Positions 1-60,879 of a stretch of DNA of 64,000 nucleotides are shown here, one piece after another. This stretch comes from Nymphaea colorata (Eukaryota; Streptophyta; Magnoliopsida; Nymphaeales; Nymphaeaceae), in the NCBI RefSeq assembly GCF_008831285.2, contig NC_045144.1, positions 13,133,858 through 13,197,857 on the forward strand. Reading direction: 5' to 3'. Below the pieces are notes generated by a model that did not search any database, was not told the DNA's origin, and saw only the letters and a program-made list of their open reading frames with translations. The position numbers and the translations under genes were made by a program. How positions within the stretch are numbered: the first letter of the stretch is position 1; each line of letters opens with the position of its first letter.

Positions 1-895
1 AAGAAGTTTCCTTATTCCCATTTCCAGAACTCTGTACATATTTGTCAGAATTTTTCTCCACGTCATATGCTTCCTTAGTCAATATATTATCTTTAACTAA
101 TGAATTATGTTCATCTCTTTCACTTGGACTTAGGTTCTCTAGCTCGGAGTCCTTTTCTGTAACATTATTTTCCTGACTGTCACCTTTTATTACGGTGACA
201 AATGAATTCCCTTTGTGCATCATGCTGTCAGCCTCCTGACTTCTTCCTGCAGAATTCTTTTCAGTGATTTCTTCTCTGATTATTTCTTTATCACTGTCAC
301 CATTTGCTGAAGTACAAATAACTTTCTTTTCCAGTAAGTCACTGTCATTTCGCATTGACCCAGAAGGATTTGCTGCCTCAGAGGAAACCATATTATTCCT
401 TGATGAACCATCAATTTTAGATTTTGAAGACTTAGTCTCATGCAATTGGGAATGGAGAATCTCTGAAGACACTGGCCTCATGCCTGCAGTTCCCTTCCCA
501 ATAAAGTCGCCATCAACCACCATGGGTGATTCATGATTGAGTGAAAATACAGAAGGATCTGCTTTCAGATCCAGATTGTTTTCTCCTGAACTGTGCATCT
601 GTAAGGACTTCTCTTCGGTATTGACAAGACTATTTATGCTATCACGAGATTGATTAGCATTCAGTTCTCCATTTTTGCACGAAAACTCTTTAATTCTTCC
701 TGCAACTTTCGACTTTATTTGTCCTGACAAATTAGGTACCCACTTAAGATTAATGAGGTCTGCAATATTTAATTTTGTTGCTTTTGTTTGGGCTAGCTCA
801 TAAACAGCAGCAGTTACTTTCCCACGAACATTTTCTGGAACAGCCTCCTGCAAAGCTTTTAGCAATGTCTCCCCTTGTCCTACTGCAGCCAAAAC
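1..895 (-). CDS. EMB8-like gene, exon 7 (partial, runs off the window)
   Basis: The acceptor is TTTCTCTCCAG|GTT, phase 0. The frame is open for 298 codons to the window edge. It opens [20 protein letters not shown], which continues the exon 6 end (EQKKK) as in related proteins, and shows these are consecutive exons 29 kb apart. The rest is a hydrophilic Ser/Asn/Glu-rich region with no domain I recognise. Plus-strand ORFs in this stretch are antisense shadows. Confidence 0.82.
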
Positions 896-3800
896 CTGGA
901 GAGAAATTGAAAATTAGTTAAGCCAGGCAAAGTTTAGCTGGAAAAGAAGAATTAAATTCACAGAAAGCATATTTCAAATAATCTTTCATAAACATTTTTC
1001 TTTCATAACAGCGTAGCATGTCTGCTGTTGTTACATTTGTAATGTGCTATCAAGGCATGCCACAGAAGTTCATCATACGATGCATTAAAACCTGCAAATA
1101 AAACTCATGACCCTTGTTGTTAACATTAAATGAGCAAGAACGAAGAAGATGGGACAGAAGAGAAGCAAGAGAAGCTAGAGAGGAGAAAAAGAGAAAAAAG
1201 GAAGTCATAGCTTTTGGCTACACCTCCTCGACTAGATTAAAATATCTAATTAGAGTTACGTCTAACCCCTTACATAATTATAAAGAGACCAGTAAATAAA
1301 TAAAAATTCAAAGAACTACCTAATAATAAAGTTCCAAAATACAGAAAACCTCACACCAGCACGTTTTCTCAACACTCTCCTTCAAGCTGGAGCATAGATA
1401 TCTAGTATGCTCAGCTTGCTATAACATTTCATGAAATCTGATATAGGGGGAGCTTCAGTAAATATATTTGCAACTTGATCTTTTGAAGCAACAAAGGTAC
1501 AAAATCAAGTAGTAGACATGTTGTCATCAATAGAGCCTGCACAATCTGCATCAGAATAAGTCTCTATCTAGAGTGATAACGGAAGGTTCATTGGAAAGCT
1601 TCCTAATGGTGGTCAGATACTTAAAATCAGCCCCGGGGCAAGGGGTTATGGTTCAAAAAGGAGAACATATTGGCATAAAAGCTTATAGAGATGCTCATTA
1701 TGCAGGGTCTGTAGATGACAAGAAGTCTACTACATGTTTTTTTGTCTTTGTGGGAGACAACCTTATTTCTTGGAGGAGCAAGAAGCATAATATGGTGGCT
1801 CGATCTAGTGTTGAGTCTGAATATAGGGCTATGACTCAAACTGTAGCTGAAATGTCATGGGTCAGATCATTGCTTCTAGATTTGAGCATTTCAATGAATC
1901 TCCCATAAGATGTATTGTGATAATAGAGCAGAAACTTATATCGTAAACAACCCTGTCTTCCATGAGAGGACAAGAAGGTGTTATTAGCACTGTTCATGCC
2001 TCCTCAGACAATCAAGTTGTTGATATATTTAAGGCTCTCCCCATAGGCGATTTCTTGAGAGGTTGTAACAAGATGAGTATGATTGCTATATATGCTCCAG
2101 CTCGAGGGGAAGTGTTACATACTCTAGACAGTCGAATACAGGGTTTCTGAGAGTGTCGGTCTTTTAATATTATCTAATGTTGCTTGGACTAATATTGTAA
2201 ACATTGTAGTACCACCAGCCCTAATCTCTTTAAATCTGAGATTAGGGTTATGTTAATGATAACTTTTTGGCTTCTCTCTCCCTGATCGTAACATATCGCT
2301 CAGTCGTACTGTCAGAGTTATACTTGATAGTAAATACTCATTTCGAGCTGACAATATCTGCCTCGGATGAAGTATCAACAATATCCCAAGTGCGGCAAGA
2401 TAGTAGAGTCTCCATCCCCTCCTTCATTGCTTGGTACCACTTAGAGTCCAAAAGAGCTTGTTCATGCGAGATAGAGACTAAAGTAGCTGACAAGACATCA
2501 ATAAATTTGCACATATGATCTCCCAAATGAAATGTACTAACAAATTTAGAAAGATGATGAATCATGCATTATTTGGTCCTTTTATGTAGTGCAATAGGCA
2601 ATTCATCAGAATGAGACACATCAATGGAACATTTAGTCATGTCATGTAGTTCAAAACTTCGTACCTCCCGAAAGCAAGACGGTGCAGGGTCATTAGACGA
2701 CGGATTCCTTCTTGAATATGTGAGAGGGGGGTCTTTAAATTGCGTAATGGAGGAATTGGGACAAGTGGGGGATGATGTAAAAGGAAGTGACTCAACTGGA
2801 ATAGGTGGAATTGGAAGTGGAACAAAAGGGGGCATGTCAAACTATGGATACAGACTGTGGATATGAAGGGCTTGCAGGAAAGAATGGAGAAGACTGAGAG
2901 ACGAGAAGAAGTCAAGAGAGAGAGAGAGAACTGCACGAACCATTTCATTAAGCTGCCCCTTCTCACGTTAAATGAGAATTAGGGTAAAAAGAAGAAATTA
3001 CAAAATCAGTCCAAGACTGGAACAACTATTAATAAAAGCTGTTAATACAACTTTTCAATATTCAAAAGACCACCTATTATAAATGTTATTCAACACTCCC
3101 CCTCAAGCTGGAGCGTAGATGTAATGCTCGATGTCTTTCAGGCGGGCCGGTTCGGGTCCAGATCCGGACCCAAACCCAAGTGCGTGACGAGCCCGACGCA
3201 AGGGCCCTTCTCCCTCACATCTCCCTCTTCTTCCTCGTCGCCTTTTTCCTCTGCTTCGACCGTGTGAGACCAGGAGGAGGACGAGGGTGCAGTGGCGACG
3301 CTTGGGCCGGCGGAGGAAAGACGGCAGCGGCGGCATTCGCGTAAGCCCTCAACCTCGCCCTAACTCTTCCTTCTTCTTCTCCTCCCTCTCCCATTGTTCT
3401 GCCGTCTCCCCTCCCTGCCGCACGGCCTCCTCTTGTGCAGCCTCTTCCCTTCCGTTTGTTTTGTTGTTTCTCTCCCTCTCCTCCTCTGCTCGAGCTCTCA
3501 CTCCCACACTCTCTCGTCCTCTCTGCTGCACCCTCTCCCTTTTTCCCCGCCCGTTTTCTTGATGTTTTTGACTGTTTTGGGGCTGTTGGTTTGGATTGCA
3601 GTTGGAGACACATCTTTCCCCTCATAGCAGTGACGTGAATGCGTTGGTAGTGGCGGCATTGAGGGATTTTAGCCGTTTGGTGGCCTTTCGAACTCGTGGG
3701 GTGGCTGCCAGAAGAATTGCAGCAGTTCGGACGTTTGAATTGGGGTGAGCAAGGCGCAATTGAGCCTATTTTGTTGTGTATTTTTTGTTGGAACACGTAT

Positions 3801-6800
3801 AATTATTATTTGAGCATGCTAGACTCTTGGTTTGATGATTTGGAATGTATGTTAGCAACTTTGTTTTTGGGGAAAGTTTATGATCATGTTGGAGAAGCGT
3901 TGATTCATGTCTATCATGATCTTTTAAGTTGCTGATTTTTCGAAGCTATTTGGGAACATGGTAGAGATTGCATTGTTGTGGTGAACGTTAAGAATCGTTT
4001 TAGTGAGCTTGAGAAATATGTTGCTATTAATGTGCATATATATTGTATGTTGAGAATCTTATGGTGGGGAAGACGCCTCAACTAAGCAAAACAAGTGAGA
4101 ATCGTACATGTGATAAGTCGAACACAAGCTTTGAGTTCTCACGTTTGGTGGCGACGTCAAGAAGTTGGGAAGTGGCCTATTGGAGGGCCTTGTGGTTCGA
4201 CACTACCCGTCGACATCCTTTTGAAGCGATGACATGTGCCTCAATGGTTTTGTTTTGTATTTGTATGTTTTGCGAAACTAAGCTAGTAGAGGATTTACTA
4301 CTTGTGTATGTCTGCAGGTACACCGGGTACGCCCCGTAGACCTTGAGCAACCAGATTCGAAGCTCGAGGCATTTTGAAGAGTGTTTGGGGGCGCGTCAGG
4401 TATGGCGGCATTCCAGGCAAATCCCTGCCTAGGGCCAACGTGTGAATGTGTGTTCCTAGGATCGTGGGATCCTAGGATTGTGATGTGATTGATTGATTGT
4501 TTTGTGAGTGAATGTATGTATGCATGCAAATGACTTGATATTTATGATATGATTTGTTTTGAAAAGCTATTAGAAACTTGTTTTGAAAATGTTACGCATT
4601 TGCATGTGCATGATAGAATTGATAACCGCTTAGGATAGATGAGGTGGGGTATCGAGTCGAGTGTCTCATCGACCCCAATTGTGCATTAGAAAGCATCCTA
4701 GAATGATAACTGCATAGGACAGCTACGAGCCAATCACAAATCGAGACTACTCTCTGTGGGTTGGCTATTGAAAGATGTAACTGATGTAAGTGATTGTGAA
4801 TGATTTTTCATGTGACAAGTTTTGTTTTGGAAAGCTATTAGAAGCTTGTGTTGAAAATTGTTACACATTTGCATGTGCATGCTAGAATTGGTAACTGCTT
4901 AGGACAGATGAGGTGGGGTATCGAATCGAGTGTCTCCTCGACCCCGATTGTGTATTAGAGAGCATCATAGAATGATAATTGCATAGGACAGCTACGAGCC
5001 ATCGCGGATCGAGACTACTCTCCGGGATTTTGCCAAGTTTTGAAAGATCTGATTGATGTATTTGATAAGATGTGAATTTTTATGGATGTGAATGTTGTGA
5101 TTTGTTGCATATGTATTGCAGTGGGCAATAATGCAATTGACTGAAATTGGAGGGTAGTTGTACCCGTATTATATGACGGCTAGCTATGTCTGTTAATGTT
5201 ATGTGTAGACCTCGTGTGGAGGCAATTGGAGGTGTGGGTGCACTCGTGAAGTGAACCAACTTCATGAGCTAGCCAGTCATTCTATGTATGTGCAATTATA
5301 ATGTTAAATAAGAAAGAATAAGAGATGAGAGGCCAGTGGGTTGTGGCAACGTGTTTGGGAGACGTCCCGCTTTCACCACTGGTCTCGCCTGTTCGGAGCG
5401 CAGGCAGTGCAAGGCCCCAGGGTACTGTTGTGTGTTGTGCTTGGAGCGTTGGGCTTCCGCCTTTCCAACCTGGGTGTCCTAGGGAAGGTTGAGTATCTCT
5501 CCTTGAAATTCACACATCCATGGATGAGTCCTCTACTGCTGCAGCGGGTGAATGGATCCATATTGTTCTAGGCCACCACGGGGGTTGTCTCTCGGTTGTA
5601 GGCCGCCCGCGGTGTGCACGTGCCTGTGTTTGCACCCACAGAAACTGTCAATTCACTGAAGTTAATGAAAATGTAAAGTATATGAATGAAATGTATATGA
5701 TTGATGTGCATGTGAATGATATGAATGAAATGATATGTTTATTCGTGCCTTGCATGTGAATTGGAAACATGTTACTGTGGCCATTAAGTGGCCTTTACAT
5801 GTCGTGGTCTATGTTAGGGGTCTTTTTGGCAAATGATGTAGCTATGCCCTGACACGACATGGTGATAGATTGTTTTTATGATTGTTCTCATATTTGAGCC
5901 CTACCTAAGAGGGTTTGGAATTTTCCTGGCTTGTTGCCATACTGCGAAGGCTAAGCCTTCTGTTGTTTCGTTTTTCAGGTTTTGGTAGACCAGGGGCAGC
6001 AGGTTGAGCAGATGGCTTCACTCACGTCCTACTGGGGAGGTTTTGGGTCTTTTGTAGTGTCGGGCCTGCCGGCGCGTTTTATTTTGATTGTATTGATGTC
6101 TTGATTTTGTTAGACATCAATTATATGTTTTGGGGTATTTTTGTCATACTCATAGATGTGATTTTGTATGAATCAAAATTGGTATATAAATGAAAGTTCG
6201 CCCCATTGTTTTGAATGGCATAGCTCCCTCTTTTTGATTTGTTGTGTGGTCACACTTCAACACTTTATGTTAGAAAAAAAAAAATTGTGTTTGAGCGTAA
6301 AAAAGGTCGAGGTGTGACAGTAGATGTTAATCATGCTCAGCTTGTCACAACATCTAGAGAACTCTGCAATAGGCAAGGCTTTAGTAAAGATATCAGTTGT
6401 TTGATCCATAAACCATATCACGAATTTAATGACAATCTACTTCAATGTGCTTTGTCTTCTCATGAAATACGGGATTATTGGCAACGTAGGTGGCAGCTCT
6501 GTTATCACAAAACATTTTCATAGGTAAAGAAGTTGGAATACCAAGACTCTCAAGTAGGGATCTAGACCAAGTCATTTCGGCAGCAGTTTGAGCCATCGCA
6601 CGATATTCTGACTCCCCACTAGACCTAGAAACAACACTTTGTTTCTCACTCCTCCAGGAAATGAGTTTTCCTCTCACAAACACAGAAAACCCTATGGTAG
6701 ACTTCTTGTCATCAATTGAGCTTGCATAATCTGCATCACTGTAAGCTTCAACATCAAGAGATGTACCTTTTTTGAAGAAAAGGCCTTTGTCAAGGGAGGG

Positions 6801-9800
6801 CTTCAAATATTTGACAATCAAAATAGCTGCATCCCAATGTGATTGTTTTGGTTTTTCCATGAATTGGCTTAATTTTCCCACAACAAAGCTAATATCTGGT
6901 CGAGTCACTGTCATATAAAGAAGCTTACCAATCAACGACCTGTAGGCTTGTGAAGTTACCTCTTTCGAGTCATCGTCATAGTACCCGTGGATTCATAGGA
7001 AGAGTTGCTGGCTTAGCTCCTAGCATCCCTCTGTCTTGTAAAAGATCAAGAACATACTTCCTTTGCGACAACACAACTCCTTCCTTGCTACAAGCAACTT
7101 CGATGCCAAGAAAATACCGTAGCTAACCAAGATCTTTGGTAACAAAGTGATTTTGCAAAAACTTCTTTGTTAGAGCTACCTCTTGCTCACATTCACCTGT
7201 CAAAACAATATCATCAACATACACCATTAGCACAACTGTACCTCTAGATCCTTTCTTGATGAACAACGAATGATCTAGTTGAGACCTCGTAAAGCCACAT
7301 TCTAACACCACTTCAGAGAATTTGTGAAACCAATTACGAGGGCTTTGTTTCAATCCATAGATAGCTTTCTTCAACCTACACACCTTACCACACTCCCTCT
7401 GACGTTCAAAGCCAAGGGATTGCTGCATGTAAACAGTCTCATCAAGATCCCCATATAAGAAAGCATTTTTGACATCCAACTGATCTAAGGATCAATCATA
7501 ATGCATTGCGATTGACACAAGAAGACGTACGGTTCCCATCCTAGCTACAGGCGAGAAAGTCTCAAAGAAATCAATACCATACGTTTGTGTATACCTTTTT
7601 GCTACAAGACGAGGTTTGTAGCGTTCCGCTGAGCCACTGGATAAATACTTTATGGTGAAAACCCATTTGGAGCCAACGACATCACAACCATATGGAGGAT
7701 CAACCAAGTCCCACATCCCTCATTGCAGTAGTCTCCATTCTTGCATAGCTTGCCTCCATTTTGGGTCAAGTAATGTCTGTTGGTGACTAGAAGGAAGAGA
7801 GTAGACTGATAAGGCGGACACGAACTACTGCAGGCTACCACCAACATTATCAGTAAAAACAACATGAGATATAGGATGAAGAGTATACTATCGTTTGCCT
7901 ATGCGAAGAGCTATAGGAAGGTCATCGGCCCCATCACAGCCATGAGTGCCATAATCTAGGCTTTCATGAGAGCTTACCTCCTGAGGAGACATTGGTGGAG
8001 AAACAGACTCAAGGTGAGAAGGAACCGACTCCAGTGGAATGGAAAGACTAACAGAGGGAGACACCTGTTGTGGAGGACAAGAGGAAATGTAGTAAGGCTG
8101 AGACCCAAAGAAAGTAACATCCGCACTGATAAACTCCTTATGAGTTAAGGGATCAAAACACTTGTAGCCTTTTTTATGGGAAGGATAGCCAATGAAAACA
8201 CACTTGATGGACTGAGCTGCAAGTTTTTCCTTGTGTGGGCCATGAATATGAACAAAACAGGTACAACCAAACACCTTTGGAGGAAGGTGAAATAAAGGTC
8301 AATTGGGAAACATTCTTTGGATGGAAATTTCATTTTGAATAGCTGAGGATGGTAAGCGATTGATCAAGTAACAAGCAGTAAGTATGACATCTCCCCAAAA
8401 ACCCATAGGGAGATGAGAGTGCAACATAAGAGTACGAGCCATGTCTAGAAGTTGGCGATGTTTTCTCTCAGCAACCCCATTTTGTTGGTACGTGTGAGGA
8501 CATGTAAACTGTTGTCGAATACCATGATTGTTGTAAAATTGCATTAAATTGGAGGCTTTGAACTAGCATTATCAGTGCGAATGCATTTGACAGTAGAAGA
8601 AAATTGAGTCTTTATTTCTAGAATGAAATTTTTGAGAATACATATGACCTCAGACCTCTCTTTCAACAAAAATACCCAACTAACTCTAGAATAATCATCA
8701 ACAATGACCAGGTAATAATGAAACTTAGACCTACTAGGAACCTGACTGGGCCCCACACATCAACATGAAGAAGATCAAAAAGACTCTAATTGGATGGACT
8801 CAAAGTTGAAGGAAAACTACTTCGTGTGTGTTTGCCAAGTTGACAAGCTTCACACTCAAAGTTCTCAGACATAGACATATTAGGAAGAACATGACGCAAC
8901 TTTGATGGAAAAGGATGACCCAACCACAGGTGCCATTGATATGGAGTGGGTTTTTGAGAGACAGAAGTAGTTGCAGAATCCATAGATGTTGACAAAAGGT
9001 AGACTCCCCCTTGCTCATGGCCTCCACCAATCACCTTCCTAATTTGTAAGTCCTGAAATACACAAGAATTAGGGTCAAACATGACTTTACATGGTAAACC
9101 AGATGTTAGCGGCTGCACTGACAATAGGTTTGTAGGAAACTCTGGAGTATATAAAACATTTGATAAACTTAATGATGGAGAGATTTTAACATCACCACTT
9201 CCCATAAAGGGAGAGAACTTGCCATCGGCTAATTTAACAAACCGTGGCCGATCAAACTTGGTCAAGGAAGAGAACAAATGTGGCCGACTACAAAAATGCC
9301 TCGAGGCTCCTAAATCAATCATCCAAACTGTACCTGGGTCGTGTGAAACTGTGGAGAGAGTAGAACCAACTATTCCAGACAAGGCAGAGACTGATGAGGA
9401 AGACGAAGCAGCTCTTTGAGATAATATATGCTCATACTCTGCCTTATTCAGGCTAAGAGAGAAAGACTCAGATGTAGTTGGATTCTCTCCAATGGCTGTT
9501 GCCTGAGTCATTCCTATAGGAACTGATGATGAAGTACCTCTACCTGTGAGAGTCTTAGACCCTCTTCCCTGTGAGCCTCCAGATGGTCTACCATAGATAT
9601 CCCAGCACCTGTCCACAAGATGACCTAGTTTCCCACAATGGGTACATTGAAATCTGCAACGTCCTCCAAACCTCCTACCTGTGCCTCTTCCTCTAAAAAC
9701 AGAGGAAGAACTTGACCCACGCCCATTAGATGCAACCAATGAGAGTGTCAATGACAGACTGAGGTAGAGTAACCACCAGACAACTTAGCCTGTTATATGC

Positions 9801-12800
9801 CTCTACCAAACCAGGGATATCACTCCCAGTGAGCATCTGTGCCTTTGCCATTGAATATTCTGGAGAAAGATCTGCCAAAAACTTGGAAACCATACTTTGC
9901 TCATAATGAGTCTTATAGCATGACTTACATGGGGGCCGAAGGGATTTCAGTCACTCAAAAGTGGCCTTGACTGCTGCAAAAATATTGGGGCAAACTCATA
10001 TCACCCTGTTGTAGTTTGTATAGTTCTTCCTCTACCTAAAATACTTTGCTCATATTATTGTCATGTGAATAAGTCTCACATAAAAAATCCCACATCTCCT
10101 TAGCAATAGTGTAATATGCAATGGTAGGAGAAATAGAAGAGTCCACACTATTCATGATCCAAGACATAACCATGTTGTTATCCTCTTGCCACGAAGCATA
10201 CTTTCCAGTCTTGATAACTGGTTCATCTTCCTCAAGTAAATATTTTTTTTGATGTCCAATAACTGACATCATGAATGACCTCGACCAGATTTCATAATTA
10301 ATCCCATCCAACTTAACTATAGAACCATATGAGAATGGATTGCCCCCAATTTTAAACTCATGAGAGGAATCAGGTTTGGGATTTTCAGCCATTGTAAAAC
10401 TGTCCACAAGATTTCAACTGAAAGAGAATATAAAGAGCAGAATAATGCTGATAAAAAAAGAACTAGGGACTAGTGCCACACAGCAAAAAAATATCGTGTA
10501 GATGGGAAGCAATGTTTCCAAATAATATATAGATGACTACACAACATATTGCTTTCCACCACAAGATAACAACCACACCACGACTACCAAGAAAAAATCT
10601 TACTCACGTGTAGATGCGCAACACTTCTTCCCACACAGCAGATTGTTGTCCACCACCGACCAAGATTTCTGCATCAGCATCCACTACTCCTCAACCAGCA
10701 GTCCTTCATTTGGCTGATCCACCATCTTATGTCCGTTCAAAAGATATTAAACCATGCTGACTCCCATACAGATGTGCCTTTTTTTTTTGTTGATATCCAC
10801 GGTTGGAGTCTATTCACGCATATTTCTGTGTGTGGACAGACTCCCTCCTTGCTGATGTTGCCGACCAGAACAGATGAAGGAAGAGAGGGAGAGGAGAAGA
10901 GAAGGAAGAGAGATCGCCCGAGAAGGTCACCGGAAGTTGGACAGTCGCCGGTGGTCACGTGGCCCTCTCTGATACCATGTTGCAAGAGAGACGAGAAGAA
11001 GTTGAGAGAGAGAGAGAGAGAACTGCACAAACCATTTCATCAAGCTGCCCCCTTCCCACGCTAAATGAGAATTAGGGTAAAAAGAAGAAATTACAAAATC
11101 AGTCCAAGACTGGAACAACTATTAATAAAACTTTTATATTCAAAAGACCACCTATTATAAATGTTATTCAACAACAAACTCTCGATTAAATATAGGATCT
11201 AAGCATCGGTACCCTTTCTGATTTCAAGCATATCTCACAAGTACACATTTAGTTGCTTGCGCAGCTAGTTTATCTCGATTAGGTCCAAGTCGATGTACAA
11301 AACATGTTCATCCAAATACACGTGGAAGTAAAGAGAACAAAGCCCTCTTTGGGTAAAGAATTTGAATTGGTATCTTGTTGTCCATAGAAGAGGATGGCAT
11401 TCCATTATTAGGTAACATGCAGTTAAGATTGCATCTCCCCAAAATTTAGAAGGTATATAAGCATAAAGCATGATATTGCGAGCTACATCCAACAAATGGT
11501 GGTGTTTTCTTTCAACCACACCATTTTGTTGAGATGTGTGAGGACATGTAAACTGTGGCACAATACCATGAGATTTATAGAATTCAAGCAAAGAAATAGA
11601 TTTAAACTCGAGAGCATTGTCAGTGTGAACAACCTTGACACAAGAATTAAATTGAGTTTTTATTTTCAATATGAAAGATTTCAAGATACAAGGAGCTTCA
11701 GATCTGTCTTTCATAAAAAAAACCCAAGTGGCTCAAGAGAAATCATCAACAATGGACAAATAGTAACGAGACGACAACCGACTCGGGACTCGACTAGATC
11801 CCCATACATCAACATGAACTGAATCAAATCAATTTTGGCTCCATTGACTTTGACTTGATGGAAAAGACGTATGATTATGCTTGCCTAGTTGACAAGCTTC
11901 ACACTGGATGGAGGTTTGTAGAAGAAATCTGAGGACATAACTACCAAAGTTTAGGAAAAGATGGATGACCAAGTCTGAGATGCCATTGGAATGCACTTGA
12001 AGGTGAATCAACTAAGAATGACGACTCTTCAACGGATGTATCTAAGAAGTACATTTCGTCTCTCTCATGGCATCCATCAATCTTCCTCCCAGCCGATAGG
12101 TCCTGAAATACACAAGTATCCAGGTCAAAAATAACTCGGCAATTCATCTTTTTAGTTAATTTGCTTACAGATAGCAAATTCTTTGAGAAGTCAGGAGTAT
12201 AATGCACTTCATGAACATGTAAAGATGGAGATAGCCGAACATCTCCATGTCCTTCTACCGAAGATAGCCTTCCATCCGCGAATCGAACATGCCGTGAGGG
12301 ATTAAATTTTTGCAAATTTGAAATACTAGTATCTCCACAAAAATGTTTAGATGCTCCTGAATCAATTACCCTAACAGCCATTGTAGGGAGTTCTACCTAC
12401 AGAATATGTAGAGTTTGTGACAGCAGTGGAAGCTGATAAGGTAGAAAGTGCAGTATTTGATCGATGTTCCATAATTAATTCTCGTTCAATCAGACTTAAA
12501 TTGAGAGATGTAGCATCTACAAAAGTAGCAACGGGATTCATCTTAGAAGTCATACTAACAGACTGTGTGTTTGGTTCTGTAGATGAGGATATCACAGTCG
12601 AGGATACAAATGTGTTAGGTTTACCCACTTTGTTTCAGCACCTATCCTCTAAGTAGCCAAGTCAACCATAATATGTGCATTGGAGTCTTCCGCGTCCTCC
12701 TAGACCACGACCTCTTCCTCTACCATGGGAAGAGTGTTGTGCACTTCGTCCTCCTCCAAATAAGGGAAGTGCAGATGGCTGAGAATTATTTGTAGTTGGA

Positions 12801-18800: not shown

Positions 18801-21800
18801 ACAAAACTGACATACTGGGCGCGAAGGGGTATTGCCACGGCCACGGTATCCTCGTCCTCTGGCAAAGAGGGACCCACCTCTGCCACGAGTAGCAAGCATA
18901 GCAGAAGTGGTATCAAGAACAGTCGATGAAGGGATTGGAATTCTGCTTAGCCTACTATAAGCTTCATCAATAGGAGGAATCGAGGGACTAGTGAGCATCT
19001 GATTCTTTGCTGATTCATAAACAGAGTCTAATCCAGACAGAAATACTCCGACCATAAGCATATCTCTGTATGCCTTCTGTTGTTCACACTTACATGCAGG
19101 AAAGTAGCTGTTTAGTCTCTCAAACATGGACTTGAGACTAGAATAATAAGTATGTAGAGGGCGACCATCTTGGCGCATCTGATGAATATCATGATGAAGC
19201 TGCATAATTCTTGTTTCATTCCTTGCTTGTGAATAGGTGGCTGCAAGGGAATCCCACATATCCTTTGCACTTTCCTTATGCAGGACTTCATTGGCAATGT
19301 CTTGAGTAAGAGTACCAACAATCCATACCATAACCAACGAATTATCTTTAAACCAAGTAGTATATTTTCCTACCTTCTGTACGGGCTCGGGCTCCAATAT
19401 AAGATGTTCCTTCTCATGAGCGATCAAGGTTCTTTTTACTTGCATGGCCCACATCTCGTAATTACCCCCATCCATTTTGGTGATAAAGCTGGAAAATGGG
19501 GAACTCTTCATCTCTCCCGACGACACAAAGGAAGAGGTATTAGCACCGCTGCTAATTTCAGACATCGCTCAACACAATGGAGGAAACCGAGCCACGGAAT
19601 AGGAAGTGCAGGCAAAAAGAAGACAATCACATATCGAAAGACAACATGCTGATCATGAAGCAGTTAACGCAGGCAGCAATCCATAAGTCTGATCGGCTGG
19701 AAGAGGCAACAACAGAACTGAACGAAGAGAGATACCAGAGACGACAGCGAAGACGCTGAGAGGAAAATCAGCGTGCAGAGCAGCGGCGGAGCAGAGGAGA
19801 GTGGTGGAGACAGCAGAGGCGATGCAGCGAAGACGCTGAGAGGAAAATCAGCGTGCAGAGCAGCGGCAGAGCAGAGGAGAGTGGTGGAGACAGCAGAGGC
19901 GATGCAGCGTGCAGCGGCGATTCAGCAGCAGCGGAGAAGCAACAGCGACAGACGGCGGCGGCGGGCGGAGGTGACAGCCACGGCGGGCAGCGGCGAAGAT
20001 GACTGCAACAGCTGACGGAGGCGTCGGGCGGAGAAGACAGCGACGGGCGGAGGCGTCGGGCGGAGAGGGCAGCGACGGGCGGAGGCGTCGGGTGGAGAGG
20101 TCAGCGACGGGCGGAGGCGTCGGGCGGAGAGGTCAGGACAGCGACTGGCGGAGGCGTCGGGTGGAGAGGTCGGCGACGGGCGGAGATGGGTGGACACGAG
20201 CGGGTGGAGGAAGCGCAGCGATGGGCGCGGTCAGGCGGCGGGCGGCGCCGCTCAATCGGCGCGCCAAGGAGGAGGAGACGGCTGCTGCTCTGATACCATG
20301 ATAAGATTAGAAAGAATAATCTTTGATTTTACCTCGAAATCTGCCCTAACTCCTCTTTATATAGACTAGAGGAGAGAGAGAAGTTACAAGAGAACCATCT
20401 AAAGGAAAAGTTATTACAAAAGTACCCTCTTAAACCTAAAACTGAATATAAACACATCTTAACATTATGAGATAAGTTTTGTTTTGAAAATTTCTACTCA
20501 ATTGCATGTGCATGCTAGAATTGATAACTGCTTAGGACAGATGAGGTGGGGTATCGAGTCGAGTATCTCTTCGACCCCAAATGTGCATTAGAAAGCATCC
20601 TATAATGATAATTGCATAGGACAGCTATGAGCCAATCACGGATCGGGACTACTCTTTGGATCGACACTACTCTCTGTGGTTTGGCTAAGTTTTGAAAGAT
20701 GTGATTGATGTGTGTGATTAATGTAAATGTTGTGATATGTTGCACATGCATTGTTGTGAGCTGAATGCAAATGAATGAAATTGAAGGGTAATTGTACTCG
20801 TAATGTTATGACGGCTAGCTAAGAATGTTAACTATATGAGCAACCCTCTGTGTGGAGGCAATTGGAGGTATGGGTGCACTCGCGAAGTAAACCAACCTCA
20901 TGAGCTAGTCGGTCATTTTGTGAATGTGCTTTCATAATGATAGGTAAGAAAGAATAAGAGATGAAAGACCAGTGGGTTGTGGCAATGTGTTTGGGAGGTG
21001 TCCCGCCTTCGCCATTGGTCTCGCCTGCTCGGAGCGCAGGCGGTGCAAGGCCTCAGGGTACCGTTGTGTGATGTGCTTGGAGTGTTAGGCTCCCGCCTTC
21101 CCAAACTGGGTGTCCTAAGAAAGGCTGAGAAACTATCCTTGGAATTCACACATCTATGGACGATTGTTCTTCCGTTGCAGCGCGAATGAATCCATATCGT
21201 TTCGGGCCACCATGGGGGTTGTCTCCCAACTGTAGGTCGCCCGTGGTGTGCATGTGTCTGTGTTTGCACCCAATTTACTAAAGCTAATGTAAATGAAAAG
21301 AATGTGAATGAGTGTATGTGATTGTTGAATGTGTTTTGTATGACCATTGAGAGGCCTTTACATGTCGTGGTATATGTGAGGCCGTGAGGGGCCTTCTTGA
21401 CAAGTCACGTGACTATATGCCCTATCACAACATTATGATAGTGATTTGCTTTCGTAATTGTTTATCCTAGATTTGAGCCCTTACCTAAGAGAGTTAGGGA
21501 ATTACTTGGGGTGTTTCCATATGCGAAGGCTAAGCCTTATGTTGTTTTATTTTTCAGGTTTTGGCGGACCCGGGGCAGCAGGTTGATCAGATGGCTCAAC
21601 TCACATCCTACTGAGGAGGTTTTGGGTCTTTTGTAGTATTGGCGCGTCATGTATTGGTTTTATTAATGTCTTGTTTTTGTTAGGCATCAATGTCATGGTT
21701 TTGGGGCATTTTGTCTGTTAAAGAGTGGTTCTGCAATATTAGAAAGTTGAATAGTAGTTCTTTAAATATTTTCTTATATTTAGTGGACTGATTTTGTAAT

Positions 21801-21865
21801 TGTTATGTTGCCAACCCTAATCTCTTTTAATATGAGATTAGGTCACGTGAATAAGCAAGAAAGTG

Positions 21866-21901
<36 letters not shown>

Positions 21902-24900
21902 TCTCTCTCTCTCTCTCTCTCTAGACCTAGGGCTGTGTGATCTAGGGTTTCACGCCTAGGGTTCCCTTCTCCTCTCATCTCTCATCTCTTCCGCCAAACT
22001 AGGGTTTCACACCTAGGGTTCTTGTTGTTTACAAAACAAGCAAGTTGATTGGTTGGTTGGATAGGGGCTAATCACGTTTTTAACATGTGAAAACATGATT
22101 AGCACCCTTGTGTTGCTGCTGCTGTCGTGAAGTTGCTGAAAGCTGCTGCCGTTGAAGCTTATCACGTAGCTGAAATGGTGAATCAGATTAGACCTTGCTG
22201 CAAAATCAAATCTAACTCAAGTGCAGCCGTGGAAGATGTGTAGGCCAAAGAATGTCGGATCTGCTAGGGCAGTCTGATTTGTTTAGCCGTGTGATGCCTG
22301 GTGGATTCTCACAGGCAAAGGTATGTCAGTCTTTTTCCTGCATCATTGAAGTGAGACAAGTTTGAAATTGTAAGGAGTAGGCAGATTTTTGTTTTCTCTC
22401 TGCATCGTTGAAGTGAGACAGGTTTTCTCTACTGTCAAACTTGTGCTTGTTTGCTACCTATTATCGACATCTGAAAGTGCTGCCTGCTATCCACGTCTGA
22501 AAACAGTCCGCCAATTTGTTTTGTGTTTCTGTTCAACCTGATCCTTAAGTGGATCTCGTAGAGGTTATTGTTGCTGTAATCAGATTTTTATGTTGACTGT
22601 GTGGGGCAGAGTCAATCTACTGCTTGTGGATATAATTTTATGTGAGGAGCAGAATGATCTACAGATCGTGGATATGAAATCTATAAGTTGAGGTCTCATT
22701 AGTTGTGGACTGCTGCTAATCGTAAAGTTCCTGCTTGTTTTGCAGCCATCGGCTGAAATTATTTTGTTGAGTTGCTGCCTGAGTTAGTGCCTATCTTGCT
22801 GCCTGTTTCAGTGAATTTCTGAGTTGATGATTAGAGCCATAAGTGTGTTCCAGATTCTTCTATGCTGTCGTGCCTTGGTTGAAGTTAACCACTGCACCTT
22901 ACACATACATATTGTGAATACAATTCTGGTTGGAATTTTACTATGGCTGATGGTAATGTGTCTGAGGGTTCCAATGACTACAAGATGGCTGAAAATTCCT
23001 TCTCATATGCCTGCACGACTGTGATAGACTCTTCCCTCTCTGTTGGTGCTCCTACCGATGACCCAGATATGATGTGGATGATAGATTCTGGCGCCTCCAA
23101 GCACTGTTGTAATCAACCATATATTTTTTCATCATTAGTCAGGTTCTCTACACCACAACATGTCAGACTGGCAAATGGCAAGCTATCTCCTGTATTGGGC
23201 AGCGATGATATTTATCTCCCACATTTAGGCACTATTACCCACATGCTCTATGCTCCACAGTTTCCTGTTAATTTGTTATCTGTTAAGCAACTTGCTATTG
23301 ATTTAAAGTGTAGAGTCATTTTTGACCCTGGTACATGTTCTTTTCAGGATTTACTAACTGGGAAGATGATTGGTGGCGGCCATGAACGTGAGGGTCTCTA
23401 TTTCTTGTCTGTCCCAGTAAATGTTGCTGCCTCTTCATTCTCCTCAAAGCCTTCTCCTTTTCAGTGGCATCTCACACTGGGTCATCCTTCAGTGTCAAAA
23501 CTTCGTTGCATGCTTCCAGGTATTACTATATCAGAGTCCTTCTTATGTGATGCTTGCCAATTAGGCAAACATACACGGAGTAGCTTTCCTTCGAGTCAAG
23601 AACCATCTAGTCAAAGTCCATTTGATCTCCTTCATGTGGATGTATGGGGTCCTAGTCGGGTTCCTTTTCACTCGCGTTTTCAGTATTATCTTGTTTTGGT
23701 TGATGATTTTACTCGAGTCAGTTGGGTATTCTTGTTACGGGAAAGATCCGAAGTCATATGTATTCTTCCTAAATTTGTCAAGGAAATAAAAACTCAGTTT
23801 GGTTTCATTGTAAAAAATATTCGCACTGATAATGCTCTTGAATTCAAATCTTCCGTTCTACTTCAGTTTTATGCCAATCATGGAATTCGGCCTCAATTGT
23901 CCACACACATCCCAACAAAATGGTGTTGCCGAACGCAAACATCGACAACTCCTAAATGTGGCCCGTACCCTCATGTTGCATTCTCACATGCCTGCATACT
24001 TTTGGGGGGATGCTATTCTTACTGCATGTTACCTCATTAACAGATTACCCTTGTCAGCCATCCAAGAACGTATTCTCATTCAACTTTTATATCCAAATCG
24101 ACCACTATTTTATATACCTCCCAAAGTATTTGGATGCACTTGCTTTGCACACATCCTAGGCCCAGACAAAAACAAACTTGCTGCCCAAGCCATCAAATGT
24201 GTATTTATTGGATACTCTGCAAATAAAAAAGGATATAAGTGCTTTGATCCCCAGACCAAGAAAGAGATTATCAGTGTGGATGTTACATTCTTTGAGTCTT
24301 GTCCTTATTTTTCTCCTTCGAGTCCTCCATCTGAGATGCCTATACCGGTTCCTCTTCCTATTCCACCAGTGTCACTTGAGTCGATCCCCCCATCTCAATC
24401 TATGTCATGTAAACGTTTTCTTGATCATCCATTAGTTTACACTCGTCGTTTGGGTCCTTCTCTCAACCGCCCACCAGCGTCTTCTCAAGAGGTAAGCTCC
24501 ACTGATAAGACTGACACAGGTTTAAATGATGATCACACTGCAGATGATCTCCCCATTGCTATTCGCAAGGGCAAGCGACAGTGCACACTACATCCGATTT
24601 CTAATTCTGTCTCTACTGACCATTTGAGTACAAGGTTGGTGCAGTTTGATCGATCTTTGTCTAACCACATCATCCCGTCTTCTCACCATCAAGCCTTGTT
24701 AGATTCAAGGTGGCGGCAAGCCATGCAGGAGGAAATGGATGCTCTTATCTCTCGGGAGACTTGGGATTTGGTGGATCCACCGATGCACTGTGATGTGGTT
24801 GGCTCCAAATGGGTGTTCACCATCAAGTATCATTCTGATGGTTCAGTTGAACAGTTCAAGGCACGTCTTATTGCTAAAGGATATACACAGACTTATGGCG

Positions 24901-26375
24901 TTGACTTCTTTGAGACTTTTTCGCCCGTGGCTCGGTTGGGTACTATTCGACTGATTATATCTCTTGCTGTCCAGCGAGAGTGGCCTCTATTTCAGCTGGA
25001 TGTGAAAAATGCTTTTCTGTATGGAGACCTGTCTGAAACCGTCTATATGCAGCAACCACCTGGTTTTGAGCGATAAGGGGAGTGTTCCAAGGTATGCAAA
25101 TTAAAGAAGGCTATTTATGGACTTAAACAGAGTCCTCGTGCATGGTTCCATAAGCTAACTGAGGTTTTATCTAAGTGTGGATTTCAACGATCCCAGCTTG
25201 ATCACTCATTGTTTATCAAGCGAAGCACATCTGGTATAGTGATATTGATTGTATATGTGGATGATATTGTTCTCACTGGAGAAAGTAATCAAGAAATAGC
25301 TCAGATAAAGGAGTTTTTACAACAACACTTTGTCACAAAAGACCTTGGACAACTCCGTTATTTTCTTGGTATTGAGGTGGCTCATAGTAGTAAAGGAGTT
25401 GTAGTGTCTCAACGAAAATATGCTCTTGATCTTATGCAGGAAACAGGTTTATTGAGAGCTAAACCTGCCACACTTCCCATGAATCCCCGAATTCATATAC
25501 ATGATGATGAATCAAAGCCTTTTGACTCTAGATCTTACAGATCTCTTGTAGGGAAACTGCTGTATTTGATGGTCACTCGCCCCGACATTAGCTTTGCTGT
25601 GAATAAGCTAAGTCAATTCATGGAAAAGCCTCGAAAGGTTCATTAGGATGCTGCTCTAATGATTGTCAGATACTTGAAATCAGCCCCGGGAAAGGGGTTA
25701 TGGTTTAAAAAGGGAGATGGTGTTGACATCGAAGCGTATAGTGATGCTGATTATGCAGGATCTGTAGATGACAGGAAGTCTACCACAGGTTTTTGTGTCT
25801 TTGTGGGAGGTAATCTTATTTCTTGGAGGAGCAAGAAGCAGAATGTAGTGGCTCGATCTAGTGCTGAGTCGGAATATAGGGTTATGGCTCAAACTGCGGC
25901 TGAAATGTCATGGGTCAGATCATTACTTTTAAAGTTGGTTGTTTCAGTGAATCTCCCAATGAAGATGTATTGTGACAACAAGGCGGCTACCTATATTGCT
26001 AACAATCATGTTTTTCATGAAAGGACAAAACATATTGAAGTGGATTGCCACTATGTTCGGGATTTAGTTCAAGAAGGAATTATTAGCACTATTCATGTCT
26101 CCTATGTCTCCTCTGAAGATCAGGCAGCTGATATGTTCACCAAGGCTCTTCCCATAGGCGATTTCCTAAGAGGTTGTAACAAGTTGAGCATGATTGATAT
26201 CTATGCTCCAGCTTGAGGGGGAGTGTTAAAGAGTGTTTCTGCAATATTAGAAAGTTGAATAGTAGTTCTTTAAATATTTTCTTATATTTAGTGGACTGAT
26301 TTTGTAATTGTTAGGTTGCCAACCCTAATCTCTTTTAATATGAGATTAGGGTCACGTGAATAAGCAAGAAAGTGT

Positions 26376-26406
<31 letters not shown>

Positions 26407-29400
26407 CCTTCTTCCTCCAATATTCAATATTGTCAAATGTGTTATTGAAAAATGTGAAGTAATTTTGTATAAGCAAAATTATTATATAATGGAAAGTTTG
26501 TCTCATTGTTTTGAATTGCATATCTCCTTTCCTTTTGAATTGTTGTGTCATTGCACCTCAAGTTTGTGTTTTAACAAAAAAAATTATTTCAGGGTCAAAG
26601 TGTTGGGTGTGACACATTCTCTCTTTCTATCTTCTTGCACGAATACAAATTTTTAGTTACACATATTGGTGCTAGATTTCTATCATGGTATGAGAGCAAG
26701 GTTTTGTTGTAGCTACCTAACGGAATGCCCAATCAGGTCTGATCTGATTAGAACTCTTTTCTCATCTTGTCTTTATGTTGATTATTTACTTTTCTCTTGC
26801 GTAATTTTTGTCCTTTTATACAAACCTTCTTCTTGGTTACCTAGGGGCACACCTTGTTATATCATGTCCTCTTTTTCTCCTCTTATCTACCTGTATACCG
26901 TCCTTTTCTGCTCTCATGAAAAACCACATTCTGGTATGTCCTCAAATTTTCTTCCTCATCTTATTACCAAAAAATTCAACCATAAAAATTATCTAACCTA
27001 AAAAAGGCAGATCATGCCTTTTATAAGGAATGAAGGCCCCTTTGAGCGTCTCGACAACAAAGGATCCACCAAAGTCTATTCTGTAGGAAATAAAAAATAA
27101 GGCCGAAAAGGTCATTGCTGTTCAAGAAAACAACAACCCTGAACATGTTGTCTGGATGAGACGCGACCAAAGTCTGGTTGCATATATTCTATCTACTTTA
27201 TCTCAACAAGTGCTACTTTCAGTTGATGATGATTGTACTGCAAAAAAGTTATGGGAAACTCTTGTTGATACCTTTCCCCAAATATCAGAAGCACAAATTA
27301 TGTACTTAAAGAAAGAATTTCAGAATTTGAACAAGGATTCAACATCTATCATGGATTATTTGGAACGTATTAGGGCAGTCGTCCACCATTTCCTCTTCCT
27401 CCTCGTGTTTTTGGTTGTGTATGTTTTATCCATGATCACAGTCCAAATGTCAAGAAACTTGATCCTAGGTCTATCAAAGGTGTCTTTGTTGGATACTCCC
27501 CTACGCAAAAAGGATACAAATGTATTGATCCTATTACTGGTCGAGCTTATGTTACGAGGGATGTCACCTTCTTGGAACATGCCTCTTACTTTGGTGCGAA
27601 TCCTCTTCAGGGGGAGCAGTCTGTGGGCAGGGAAGAGTATTCTCAGAGACAGGAACTTCAGTTTATAGATTTTTTGGACTACAAGAAAGCAGAATCACTT
27701 AATACTGTTGATGTGCCTGAGAAGGAGGAAAGGGGTGACAATAGCATTGAGAAGGAAGGCCCTCAGTTGTTTGGACAGTTCTACTCTAGACGAGGTACTC
27801 GGACAGAGGTGATGACTTGTGATGCTAGATCTACTTCCAATCCCAATGCCACTCCTTCCCTGGATGAACCAAGTCCTACCAAGGAGACCGTGGAGACTCA
27901 TGATGAGGTTGAAAAGAAGAATGACGATCTTCCCATTGCCCTGAGAAAGGGTGTCAGGTCATGTACTCAACACCCCATTGGTAATTTTGTTTCTTATTCC
28001 AGACTTGGGAAAGATTACAAGTGCTTTATTTCTACTCTCTCTTTGGCTGTGATTCCCAGGACTGTCGCTGAAGCTCAAAGTGACTCCAAGTGGGCTGATG
28101 CAATGAAAGAAGAAATAGATGCCCTAAGAAGAAACTTGACATGAGAAGTGGTGAAGATTCCTGAAGCCGCTCACCTAGTTGGATCCAAATGGGTGTATAC
28201 CATCAAGTACAAACCAGATGGGAGTGTTGAAAGATATAAAGCTCGACTTGTGGCCAAGGGGTTTAGCCAGAAATATGGAATTGATTACTTGGAAACCTTT
28301 GCTCCTGTTGCGAAAATGAAGACTGTGAGGGTGGTTATATCCCTAGCTGTGATGAAGGAGTGGAAGATGTATCAACTGGATGTTAAGAATGCATTCCTCA
28401 ATGGTGACCTCGAAGAAGAAGTATATATGCATATGCCTCCAGGATATGAAGAACCAGAAAAGTGTTGTAAGCTGAAAAAGGCCTTGTATGGCCTTAAGCA
28501 ATCGCCCAGAGCGTGGTTTGAACGACTAAGAAGAGTGATGATACGTCATGGATACAAACAAGGAAATGGAGATCACACTCTGTTTGTGAAGAAGAAGGAG
28601 AGCAGGGTTACTCTCCTGCTCGTCTACGTAGATGACATGATTGTTACTGGAGATGATGAGGAGGAGATTATCAAGCTAAAAGGGTTACTGGCTACAGAAT
28701 TCGACCTCAAAGATCTTGGCAAGCTAAGGTATTTTCTTGGTATGGAGGTTGCTAGGTCTAGTACTGGTCTTGTACTAAACCAAAGGAAATATACATTAGA
28801 TCTGCTGGAAGAAACTGGTAAATTGGGATGTAGACCTACTCCTACCCCTTTTGACACTGGGCACAAGTTGAGTCTTAGAGATGGAGAGCCTCTCTGTGAA
28901 GAAGACAAGGGAAGATATCAACGTTTGGTTGGGAAGCTAATTTATCTTACCCTCACGAGACCTGATATCACCTTTGCGGTGAATGTTTTGAGCCAATTCA
29001 TGCATGCGCCTACCGATGCACATTTGAAGGCTGTGGACAGAGTGCTATGCTACCTGAAGAAAAATCCTGGTAAGGGACTCCTGTATGTGAAACAAGAGAC
29101 TGTGGAAATCGAGGGCTATTCTGATGCGGATTGGGCAGGTTGTGGTGATACCAGATGATCCACTACAGGGTACTGTGTCTACTTGGGAGGAAACCTTGTT
29201 GTATGGAGAAGCAAGAGACAGGATGTTTGCTCTAGATCCAGTGCAGAGGCAGAATATAGGGCAGTTGCTATGGGAGTGTCAGAGTTATTATGGTTGAAGA
29301 TATTGTTGACTGACATTGGAATAGAGATTGAAGGACCTATGAAGATGTACTGTGATAACAAGTCTGCAATCAACTTAGCCAACAATCCTGTTCTTCACGA

Positions 29401-32270
29401 CAGAACAAAACATGTTGAAATTGATCGTCACTGTATTCGGGAAAGGATTGATGCGAAAGAGTTGATCTTACCTTACATGAAGTCTGAAGACCAAACTGCT
29501 GATGTTCTGACGAAAGCTCTTCCTTCAGCTTCATTTGAGAGGAATGTATCCAAGTTGGGCATGTTTGATATGTATGCCCAACTTGAGGGGGAGTGTTGAT
29601 GGATTGTGTGTTTCGGGTCCGGATCCATACCCGACCCGCCTTGTAGCCCGTTTTGGGCTCTACTTAAGTCATGTAACCCTAATCCTTAAGAGTTAATGAT
29701 AATCTTAAGAGAGAGAGAGTCTGGCTGCTAGTGGGCACCAACTCCTCCTCATTCGTGGTTTTTTCTCCCTCGTGTTGAGGGTTTTCCACGTTACATCGTG
29801 ATCATTGTTTCTCTTCGTCTTCTTCTTGTTCGTATTTCTACACCCATTAACCCTAATCTCTGATTCAAAGAGATCTTCTTTGTGGTGGGAGGAGGGGGGG
29901 GGGGGGAAATATAAAAGATAACAAATACAACATAGAATTTCTTAAAATTCCATAAAGCTACCTAACCCATCAACTAATATTCTAACAACCCACATCATGG
30001 ATATTCCACATGGTGAATTAGAGGTGCCTTCTTATGGTTATAATTGAATCAAAATATCTAATTTAATTTTGTGAAAAAATGAAAATACCTTTTTCTTCTG
30101 TTCATCTCCTAGTGTACCAGGCATAGTAACATCAAGCATCTTCATCACAAACTCTGCTGTTTGTAAGATTTGACTCATTTGAGTGGCACCAGGAACATCA
30201 TCCTGTCTCTCTTGAACTGCTTTATCATCAACAGATTCCACATGCTGCAATAAATGGTCAACCCCAACCTGCTGAGGTTCTGTCCCTTCCAAGTTGATCC
30301 TTCCCCGTAATTCACTTTCTAACTGCAAATGAGTTGCGGTTTTATGCCTGACCATGTAATGTCATCATTCATTCTTGAAAGAAAAAAGACCTACCAAATG
30401 TTCACTATTGAATCGTCCATTACCAGCACCACCTTGAAGATTCAAAGAAGCTTGTAAGTTTCTGGAGCCTTGACCTTGTTTGCTCATTAAGATATCATCA
30501 ACTGAAGTACTTCTGTTAAACAACATTAGACCTTTTGAAAGACTGAGAGCAATATCTGTTTCGTTTAGTAGAGGATGACGCCCCTTCAAAAATGCAAGCT
30601 CTACACCCGTGAACCACTAAGAGATGAACAAATGTGTCAAAAAAAAAAGGTCTTAGTGATGTGTGGAGCATATCCTAATAAACATTTAAAGCAGAGATGC
30701 TTTAAATTATACAAGCTTTAGTTTGAATTCAAGCATGAAAAACGGCAGCTGTGGAGAGGGTTTCGTTGATCAAACACTCAATGAGGGCAACTTTTTGCCA
30801 TACAACATAGGAAATATTCCAAGCATGAAAAACGGCAGCTGTGGAGATGTGTCTAGATCTGGACCTAGACCCGGACATGTTCCAACATAAGATTGATGCT
30901 GCATTAAGCTGAAAGGAACAGAAAAGGACTAATTGCCTCTTACATCAATTATAAGATTCTGACACCATGGCAGTGTAGAAGGAGCCGCTTTCTTCATTAG
31001 ACTTGATGGTGTACAGGAACACAAAAGTAAGCTAGTATATGGATTCTCCGCAATTGCATTGCGTGGAACAGAGAACAATGGTACAGTGCCTTCATCAGTC
31101 TGCTCAGTAGCAAAAAATAAAGGATAATTTCATAAATTAGATAATCCCTTAAAAAAATACGCATGTTAAAGAAAGAAATTGACAGCAGGCTTGTGAATCA
31201 CTTCTATGCATTCCTGAATTATCAGCAAGAATTAACAACAAAAAATGGCCAATATTTTGAATACTCATAGAAAATCATTAACTGGCTTGACACACCTAGT
31301 TGACATTTGCCAAAGGAGACCTAATTTGGAAGAATCAAGAGTTCATCCACATAAGTGAACCATATGGCGGCCGGAAAGAAAGATGATCATTTGAAATGGA
31401 TCTCTTGAGAAAAAAAAATATTTAAAACCAAAAAATATTTATCCAAACAGGTTTAAGGTGTCTGTTGGACCAGCAACAATCAATAGAATTTCACGAATGC
31501 AAAAAATAAATATACTAAATCAGAAAGCCTGATGTTTACTTTAAGATTTGGTTCCATTGAACCACTGATACATAGGTAAGATCTGCCATGCAAAATTGAT
31601 CTCAATGCTGTCACTGATTGTTTAATGCCAGAAAATTAAAAAATTACTAAAACGCTAAAATGCCAGAAATACTAAAAAAATTTATTCATAGTGTCGACTG
31701 GACCCTCTGTCCCCTGACTAAATATCCATAGTGTCGACTGGTCTGAAAGCTCAGATTTCCAGTAAAATGAGTTTCTCTCTTCCTCTGATCAGTGTCTTCT
31801 TCCTTTCTAGTTGATGTTTTTCTCTGACTGACACAATCTCTGCTTCCAAAACAGAGTTGCTTGATGTGTTACAGCTCTTTTCCGATTAATATAAACCTGA
31901 TTTATTCTGTTTTATTCTCTTCTTTCTGCCATATTCTTACTTTCTAATCAGGTCTGTCAAAATAATTTGTTTTCTGCCCATTCTGCTCTAATTCCGGTAT
32001 GTCAGGCTCAGTAATACTAGATATGCAGGTCTCAGATTCAAGCAAGCATCAGTGAGGAAACTTACTCCAGGTCAGTTCTGGCGTCTGAAATCTGACATCA
32101 GACATCAGATCCATTTTTTTAGCTTGGAGGCTGTTCATGTGTTTTGGTTTCAGGTTTGATCTGACGTCTGAAATCTGAAACGGACCAGATGTCAGATTCT
32201 TTGCATATTGAAGACTGATTTCTTGTTTTAGTGTCAACTGAAAAAAAAAAATGGAAAGGAAGAAAAGGTC

Positions 32271-59873: not shown

Positions 59874-60879
59874 AATTCTTTGTGCAAGTACTTTGTAATT
59901 TATACCTAGTTGGGAGGCCAAACGATAACATAAGCTTTTCAATTTAGATATTTTGAAGAAAAAATAATAACAAATGCTGCTTTGACTTGTTCGACCCCAT
60001 AAAAGGTGCAATATATCAATCCAATTCATTATATTAGTATTCAAGAATGGGTTTATTTCCTCAACTTCTGGGATCAAATAGCTCTGAACATAACGTGTCA
60101 AAAGGTACATAAAAAAAGGTTGAGCATACAGATCTGGAGTTTGCCAAATCGACTTAAAAAATAGACTGGCCATGCTCCAAAGAGAAGAATAGATGTCATA
60201 AATGCTGGATAGGGCAATTACAGACTAATTTTTGGAGAAAAAATAACACCACCGACGTAGAAGATCGGCTATTCTTCCACATATAGTATGGGATTGAATA
60301 CTTAAACAAATTCATTACATAAGATGAAGTTATCTCAAATGAGTCAAATCTAGACTACAGTGTGTGTGTACTTTTAAGCAGAGCAAACTCCCATTAGTGA
60401 ATTCTATACCTTGGCTACTGATCAATACAAAAATCGCAAAACCATACATAGTTCCTAGTTTCTATCCCAACACCAACATAGAGGCACAAAAAAAGCCTAA
60501 CCAACTGAGTGTGGCCATCCCGCTAGCAAAACTACAAAAAAAAATCAAAGAGAAGAAGAGAAAATGGACATGCTAAAACACGGCAGGATTCAAAAAATTG
60601 TCAACCATTGCCCCAAACACCATTTAGTTTATAGAAGTGAGAATGGCTGCTGGTCTACTTCAGGACCGAAACCACCAACAAAACATAAAGGTGCAAATAC
60701 AAAGAACCTCATGGTCTAAGCAAGTGCAAAAAAGTAAGAGACATCCTTCCTTCAAAATATGGCATCTTGAACTACAAAAATCAACGAGAAAATTTTCACT
60801 GAGGATCGAAATGTAGGTAGAGGAGAAAAGGTGAGCTCGTAATTCCATTATGAGAAGCCACAGGATACAGGTTCACGAG

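Follow-up and report, generated by a model that had tools for sequence, protein, structure and literature searches.

A 29-kb intron of nested retrotransposons inside a single protein domain of a conserved gene in Nymphaea colorata

Results and discussion

The host gene and the boundaries of its sixth intron

The stretch analyzed here (hereafter the window) comprises 64,000 nucleotides of Nymphaea colorata DNA (assembly GCF_008831285.2, contig NC_045144.1, positions 13,133,858 to 13,197,857 of the forward strand), and carries on its minus strand a conserved plant gene whose sixth intron is occupied by retrotransposons nested within one another. The model of this host gene includes seven exons: exon 1 (40448..41226), with the ATG at 41226 and an open frame reaching a GT donor at 40447; exon 2 (33832..34108), whose frame is continuous with that of exon 1; exon 3 (33524..33709); exon 4 (30944..31099) and exon 5 (30395..30616), both placed by the gene model; exon 6 (30089..30322); and exon 7 (1..895), which leaves the window at base 1. 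When joined, these seven exons provide 916 codons free of stops. The introns, taken from the first to the sixth, measure 6339, 122, 2424, 327, 72 and 29,193 bp, and five of the six have GT..AG ends. The exception is the third: exon 3 is followed by GC (33518-33523), so that intron 3 would belong to the GC-AG type, provided that the model is correct.

The limits of intron 6 (896..30088, minus strand) can be read directly. Exon 6 (30322-30089) is followed by GTATTTT, and exon 7 begins at 895 behind TTTCTCTCCAG, with phase 0 on both sides of this GT..AG intron. An earlier note, made from the letters of the same DNA, had proposed a donor after exon 6, an acceptor before exon 7, phase 0 and an intron of about 29.2 kb, and the coordinates of that proposal prove to be exact (30088 to 896, 29,193 bp).

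A single domain spans the junction of exons 6 and 7

The Pfam family PF24930 (DUF7750), on which a search of a limited literature collection found no paper, aligns with residues 590-653 of the joined product over model positions 1-64 of 65, ungapped, with 112.8 bits and an E-value of 6.7e-33. The junction of the two exons lies between residues 618 and 619, the last residue of exon 6 falling on model position 29 and the first residue of exon 7 on model position 30. Taken separately, the exon 6 frame scores 52.0 bits over model positions 1-31, and that of exon 7 scores 54.8 bits over model positions 29-64. A short peptide joining exons 6 and 7 scores 117.6 bits in a single stretch, and a control peptide that retains 16 codons of the intron attains 105.6 bits summed, but only in two stretches. 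These joined and separate matches indicate that one domain is encoded half by exon 6 and half by exon 7, and that the two exons are adjacent to the residue. Such continuity of a domain is stronger evidence of adjacency than are the splice signals alone. The earlier note had stated that the two segments adjoin each other in the protein family, which is borne out by the ungapped match across the junction; the splice from 30089 to 895 that it called for is likewise supported for the gene model by the seven exons, their open codons and the domain that bridges them.

The same matches bear on the alternative that exons 1-6 and exon 7 onwards belong to two separate genes, or that the stretch is mis-assembled, and that they do not form one transcription unit. 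Gene predictions can be split at introns of this kind, as in grape, where 99 clusters of expressed sequence tags (ESTs) are reported to have covered several genes that had been annotated one after another (PMC3058033). Separate genes, however, would not show one 65-position domain divided between model positions 29 and 30 with matching phase, and inserts bearing target duplications sit within the interval itself. We therefore consider two genes or a mis-assembly very improbable indeed. The preferred model of a single gene with one very long intron also carries a warning for annotation, as gene predictors may split this host gene in two.

Retrotransposon content of intron 6

The repeats assigned within intron 6 cover 27,989 of its 29,193 bp (96%), the limits having been placed by hand and, at some outer edges, estimated; by this assignment at most 957 bp at the two ends of the intron are free of repeats. 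The majority of the intron thus consists of transposable elements, as in other retrotransposon-expanded plant introns. The inventory, which is based on self-comparison, Pfam scans of separate frames and tblastn searches with 140-residue baits from the first of the elements described below (copia A), includes five copia elements (A-E), two additional copia 3' ends (F and G) and two inserts of about 3.2 kb that resemble long terminal repeats (LTRs), designated R1 and R2. A, C, D and G are oriented in the sense of the gene, and B, E and F against it. Each of A-E contains Pfam copia domains, and an integrase is encoded upstream of RVT_2 in A and B by Pfam and in C by Pfam together with tblastn, the Pfam scan of copia A having covered the element apart from bases 16401-17168. 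Four frames at copia ends (1534-1908, 6426-6992, 25647-26216 and 29159-29599) matched no Pfam family and were placed by similarity instead.

Copia A (15187..20464, minus strand) is a full-length element lying inside R2. It has a pair of 166-bp LTRs that differ at 1 of 166 sites, a target duplication TTATG, an uninterrupted coding frame of 1402 codons, and a primer-site motif CTCTGATACCA at 20288 that adjoins the 5' LTR. Between this LTR and the coding frame, at 19745-20185, the element also bears GC-rich tandem repeats with units of 80 bp and 32 bp. Copia B (21716..26429, plus strand) is likewise inserted in R2, and its two LTRs show 2 differences over 154 sites when a CT repeat is excluded. 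The pentamer TTGTC, seen by eye, flanks it on both sides; taking this pentamer as the duplication gives the right LTR a TA end in place of CA, and an automatic scan that required TG..CA ends plus a duplication returned no solution for this element.

Copia C (span 2894..11174, minus strand) consists of two parts, 2894-3119 and 6320-11174, which are separated by R1, and it is itself inserted in D. Its two LTRs show 9 differences over 185 sites, its frame is broken, and a primer-site motif is found at 10967; reading of its flanks revealed no target duplication. The decayed copia D is accordingly divided into a 5' part extending from gag to integrase/SH3 (11175..13255, minus strand, right limit estimated) and a continuation past C that retains no more than the beginning of the reverse transcriptase (RT) region (2291..2893, minus strand). 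In tblastn comparisons the match of D to A ends at residue 747 of A on one side of C and restarts at residue 850 on the other, and the sequence between these matches is of about the right length. The integrase of D scores 25.2 bits, under the cut-off of 32.6.

Copia E (26685..29606, plus strand) has gag, SH3-RT regions and an RNaseH-like end; it keeps RVT_2 and has lost its middle, including the integrase region. An attempt to pair its two LTRs gave no match between them, and no LTR pair was found for D either. The remaining two copia pieces sit near exon 7. F (1594..2290, plus strand, right limit estimated) is a 3' end with a partial LTR, recognized by DNA and tblastn similarity, and G (1371..1593) is a minus-strand 3' end with a tblastn match at 1391-1498, possibly the tail of copia D.

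R1 (3120..6319, strand not assigned) is a 3.2-kb insert in C with TG..CA ends and a perfect duplication GTAGA, and its longest open frame runs for 195 codons from stop to stop. R2 (span 13433..26614, strand not assigned) is a second copy of the same family, cut by A and B into three pieces (13433-15186, 20465-21715 and about 26430-26614); it has TG..CA ends, and its flanks CATTT and CATTC agree as a duplication with one mismatch. The first 0.8 kb of R2 is only weakly similar to R1 (the first piece as a whole at 66%), and a third copy, near 63.8 kb, is similar to the beginnings of R1 and R2 alike. Among eight of the longer frames, four from each of the two inserts, none matched a Pfam family over its cut-off, and there was one sub-threshold match (E-value 0.019). 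The structure of R1 supports its being a solo LTR. As no internal region or second LTR of the family was found, the solo-LTR status of R1 and R2 is not proved. The earlier note had counted two solo LTRs together with five or more copia elements in this intron: the numbers agree with the present inventory, and the solo status is favored by the ends and duplication of R1 and by the one-mismatch duplication of R2, short of proof. Partial copies of this family also lie outside intron 6, at 46870-48056 and 63817-63998.

Retrotransposon pieces are also present in intron 1 of the same gene (34109-40447, 6.3 kb). These include a fragment of a copia gag at 37464-37814 (Pfam Retrotran_gag_3), a direct repeat with copies of 81% identity (35468-35813 and 38687-39032), and a set of related repeats of about 280 bp in direct and inverted orientation at 36223-37188.

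Order and age of the insertions

The arrangement of these elements directly reveals two nests, one with C within D and R1 within C, and another with A and B within R2. This nesting implies that C is younger than D, that R1 is younger than C, and that both A and B are younger than R2. The LTR divergences (0.006 for A, 0.013 for B and 0.051 for C) make A the youngest of the three. Conversion of these values to time is loose: a grass rate of 1.3e-8 would place A at about 0.2, B at about 0.5 and C at about 2 million years. At a borrowed rate of 1.51e-9 per site per year, which is that used for Chloranthus (PMC8626473), the same insertions would be about 2, 4 and 17 million years old.

Functional state of the gene

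We favor, with a probability of about 0.87, the view that a short intron of a conserved plant gene was swollen to 29 kb by retrotransposons, and that the gene most likely still works, the intron being spliced out whole. In such a history an ordinary short intron would have received successive insertions, several of them into earlier ones, until it reached its present size. The entire stretch would be transcribed and then removed by the spliceosome as one very long GT-AG intron, which would join exon 6 to exon 7 inside DUF7750. The inserts would presumably be silenced by DNA and H3K9 methylation, and a complex of the IBM2/EDM2 type, by analogy with Arabidopsis and rice, may suppress premature polyadenylation within the intron.

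Several observations weigh against this view. We simulated neutral decay of the exons in 2,000 runs with substitutions only. At 0.03 changes per site (the value for C itself being about 0.025), 13% of the runs left exons 1-6 free of stops and 35% left exon 7 so; at 0.003 changes per site, corresponding to the age of A, these fractions rose to 82% and 90%. The simulation thus suggests that the open exons weakly indicate that the gene worked after C was inserted, and it is uninformative on the time since A: the open exons are a weak argument for function even over the longer interval, and A, the youngest insert, may have silenced the gene at so recent a date that its exons have not yet decayed. 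In grape, moreover, genes with large introns are reported to be represented by fewer ESTs (46.0% versus 32.8% singletons; PMC3058033).

These points feed directly into a competing explanation, in which a young insert (A or B) prevents the transcript from being read through or spliced. The gene would then have been disabled recently, and the locus would be a pseudogene at an early stage, for which another copy may compensate. Both inserts are young by their LTR divergence, decay over the age of A would usually leave the frames open, as the 82% and 90% of neutral runs indicate, and the EST figures from grape point in the same direction. In addition A lies in the sense of the gene, and its own end signals therefore face the transcript. 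Set against this is that the intron had already been enlarged earlier by C, D and R2, yet all seven exons are open; moreover, in Chloranthus genes with long introns are reported to be more highly expressed, with a drop only above 40 kb (PMC8626473). A recent loss of function thus seems unlikely to us, and continued function of the gene, with splicing across the whole intron, is the reading carried forward below.

Read-through, polyadenylation and splicing signals

Studies in Arabidopsis and rice provide a candidate explanation for how such an intron might be traversed. IBM2 in both plants, and EDM2 in Arabidopsis, are needed to read through some intronic elements, and loss of IBM2 or EDM2 in Arabidopsis, or of OsIBM2 in rice, leads to early polyadenylation within some of the introns that contain elements (PMC4417168, PMC10241880, PMC7145194). 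Protection of intron 6 by a system of this type, for which the earlier note had named it a candidate, is plausible on this analogy. In rice, heterochromatic introns are reported in more than 10% of genes, and in leaf 93 of the 454 genes changed upon OsIBM2 loss had such introns (PMC7145194). Given these figures, a link from intron 6 to IBM2/EDM2-type control would be unspecific.

The intron sequence itself gives no special support to such control, its signals being mixed and weak. AATAAA occurs 9 times on the sense strand against a mean of 12.1, and ATTAAA 6 times there against a mean of 12.6, in 100 first-order shuffles, so that neither is enriched; TTTGTA, with 16 sense and 20 antisense occurrences against a mean of 8.8 in as many shuffles of the same kind, is enriched on both strands and is thus not informative for direction. 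Strong donor consensus sites are absent from both strands of intron 6, which is about the chance expectation.

We also considered recursive splicing of the intron. A strict pattern of recursive splice sites gave 0 matches, and a loose pattern gave 4 on the sense strand, where 200 shuffles gave 1.5 +/- 1.2, and none on the opposite strand. This excess is too weak to be convincing, as the loose pattern was one of five tried.

A more elaborate scheme would make the amount of full-length protein depend on chromatin-dependent suppression of polyadenylation in intron 6, which might switch, under stress or in development, between the long protein and a truncated product that stops after exon 6. It would draw on the presence of copia A, a young and apparently coding-competent element in the sense of the gene, within a 29-kb intron that splits a 65-residue domain, a situation that might bring read-through control to its limit. 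We judge this scheme to be distinctly improbable. On the simplest account, the intron would be transcribed and removed whole, its inserts being silenced.

Relationship to known expanded and heterochromatic introns

Intron 6 is real and precise, and it is ordinary for a large-intron plant, being a clear example rather than a surprise, as similar introns have been reported in many plant genes. In grape 2,697 introns exceed 3 kb and are reported to consist to more than 80% of repeats, with Copia about 6.5 times as prominent as Gypsy (PMC3058033), and in Chloranthus 876 of 2,184 orthologues are longer than 20 kb, with LTR elements as the apparent main cause (PMC8626473). The present intron shares with the expanded introns of grape, Chloranthus and the magnoliids a large size, a content made up mostly of repeats, prominent LTR elements (Copia in the case of grape) and young copies. 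It does not differ from them in anything fundamental; here the order of several insertions is readable and a single curated domain contains the junction.

Heterochromatic introns regulated by IBM2/ASI1-EDM2, such as those of Arabidopsis RPP7 and PPD7 and of the OsIBM2-dependent rice genes, resemble intron 6 in that transposable elements lie within the intron of a gene. IBM1 is a further Arabidopsis gene with an intron under this regulation. The comparison differs in two respects: at least 80% of the intragenic elements in Arabidopsis are reported to be under 1 kb (PMC4417168), and methylation and factor dependence would be putative features of intron 6.

Intron 6 opens no new question. It offers a clean and checkable case of a conserved gene with a nested retrotransposon block inside a single protein domain. 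The locus would suit studies of methylation and of long-read RNA in a plant with large introns.

The host protein

The earlier note had described the gene as a conserved hydrolase, a description to be used with caution. Residues 180-416 of the product match the NCBIfam hydrolase entry PRK10985, which we take to be the family named YheT, with an E-value of 3.9e-21; the score of 75.7 bits is, however, far under the curated cut-off of 267, so that the host protein falls outside the YheT-type family as curated. No hydrolase domain was found in Pfam for the protein up to an E-value of 10, the one sub-threshold match being unrelated. A search of solved structures with the hydrolase part gave nothing at an E-value of 0.01, and up to 10 a single match of unrelated name (0.21). 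Among 50 candidate stretches one relative was confirmed, a bacterial homologue from Blastocatellia with 25% identity to the host protein. The likeness to the YheT/PRK10985-type alpha/beta hydrolases thus resides in the match over residues 180-416 and in this homologue.

The difference, apart from the low score, concerns the nucleophile elbow. In exon 2 (34006-34020) the host protein has GWGYG, aligned to GFSMG of the Blastocatellia homologue, in place of the GxSxG pattern, with glycine at the usual position of the serine. This indicates that the serine nucleophile is missing, and the protein is probably a hydrolase fold without the usual catalysis. The large Arabidopsis protein At2g03140, which ends in a membrane protease domain, is of the same type; in the literature searched, its name occurs in one paper.

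Other features of the window

Elsewhere in the window, the minus strand at 57885-60224 has an open frame of 779 codons, from stop to stop, with DUF659 and hAT dimerisation domains. Its domain content identifies it as a predicted hAT transposase or as a gene that descends from such a transposase.

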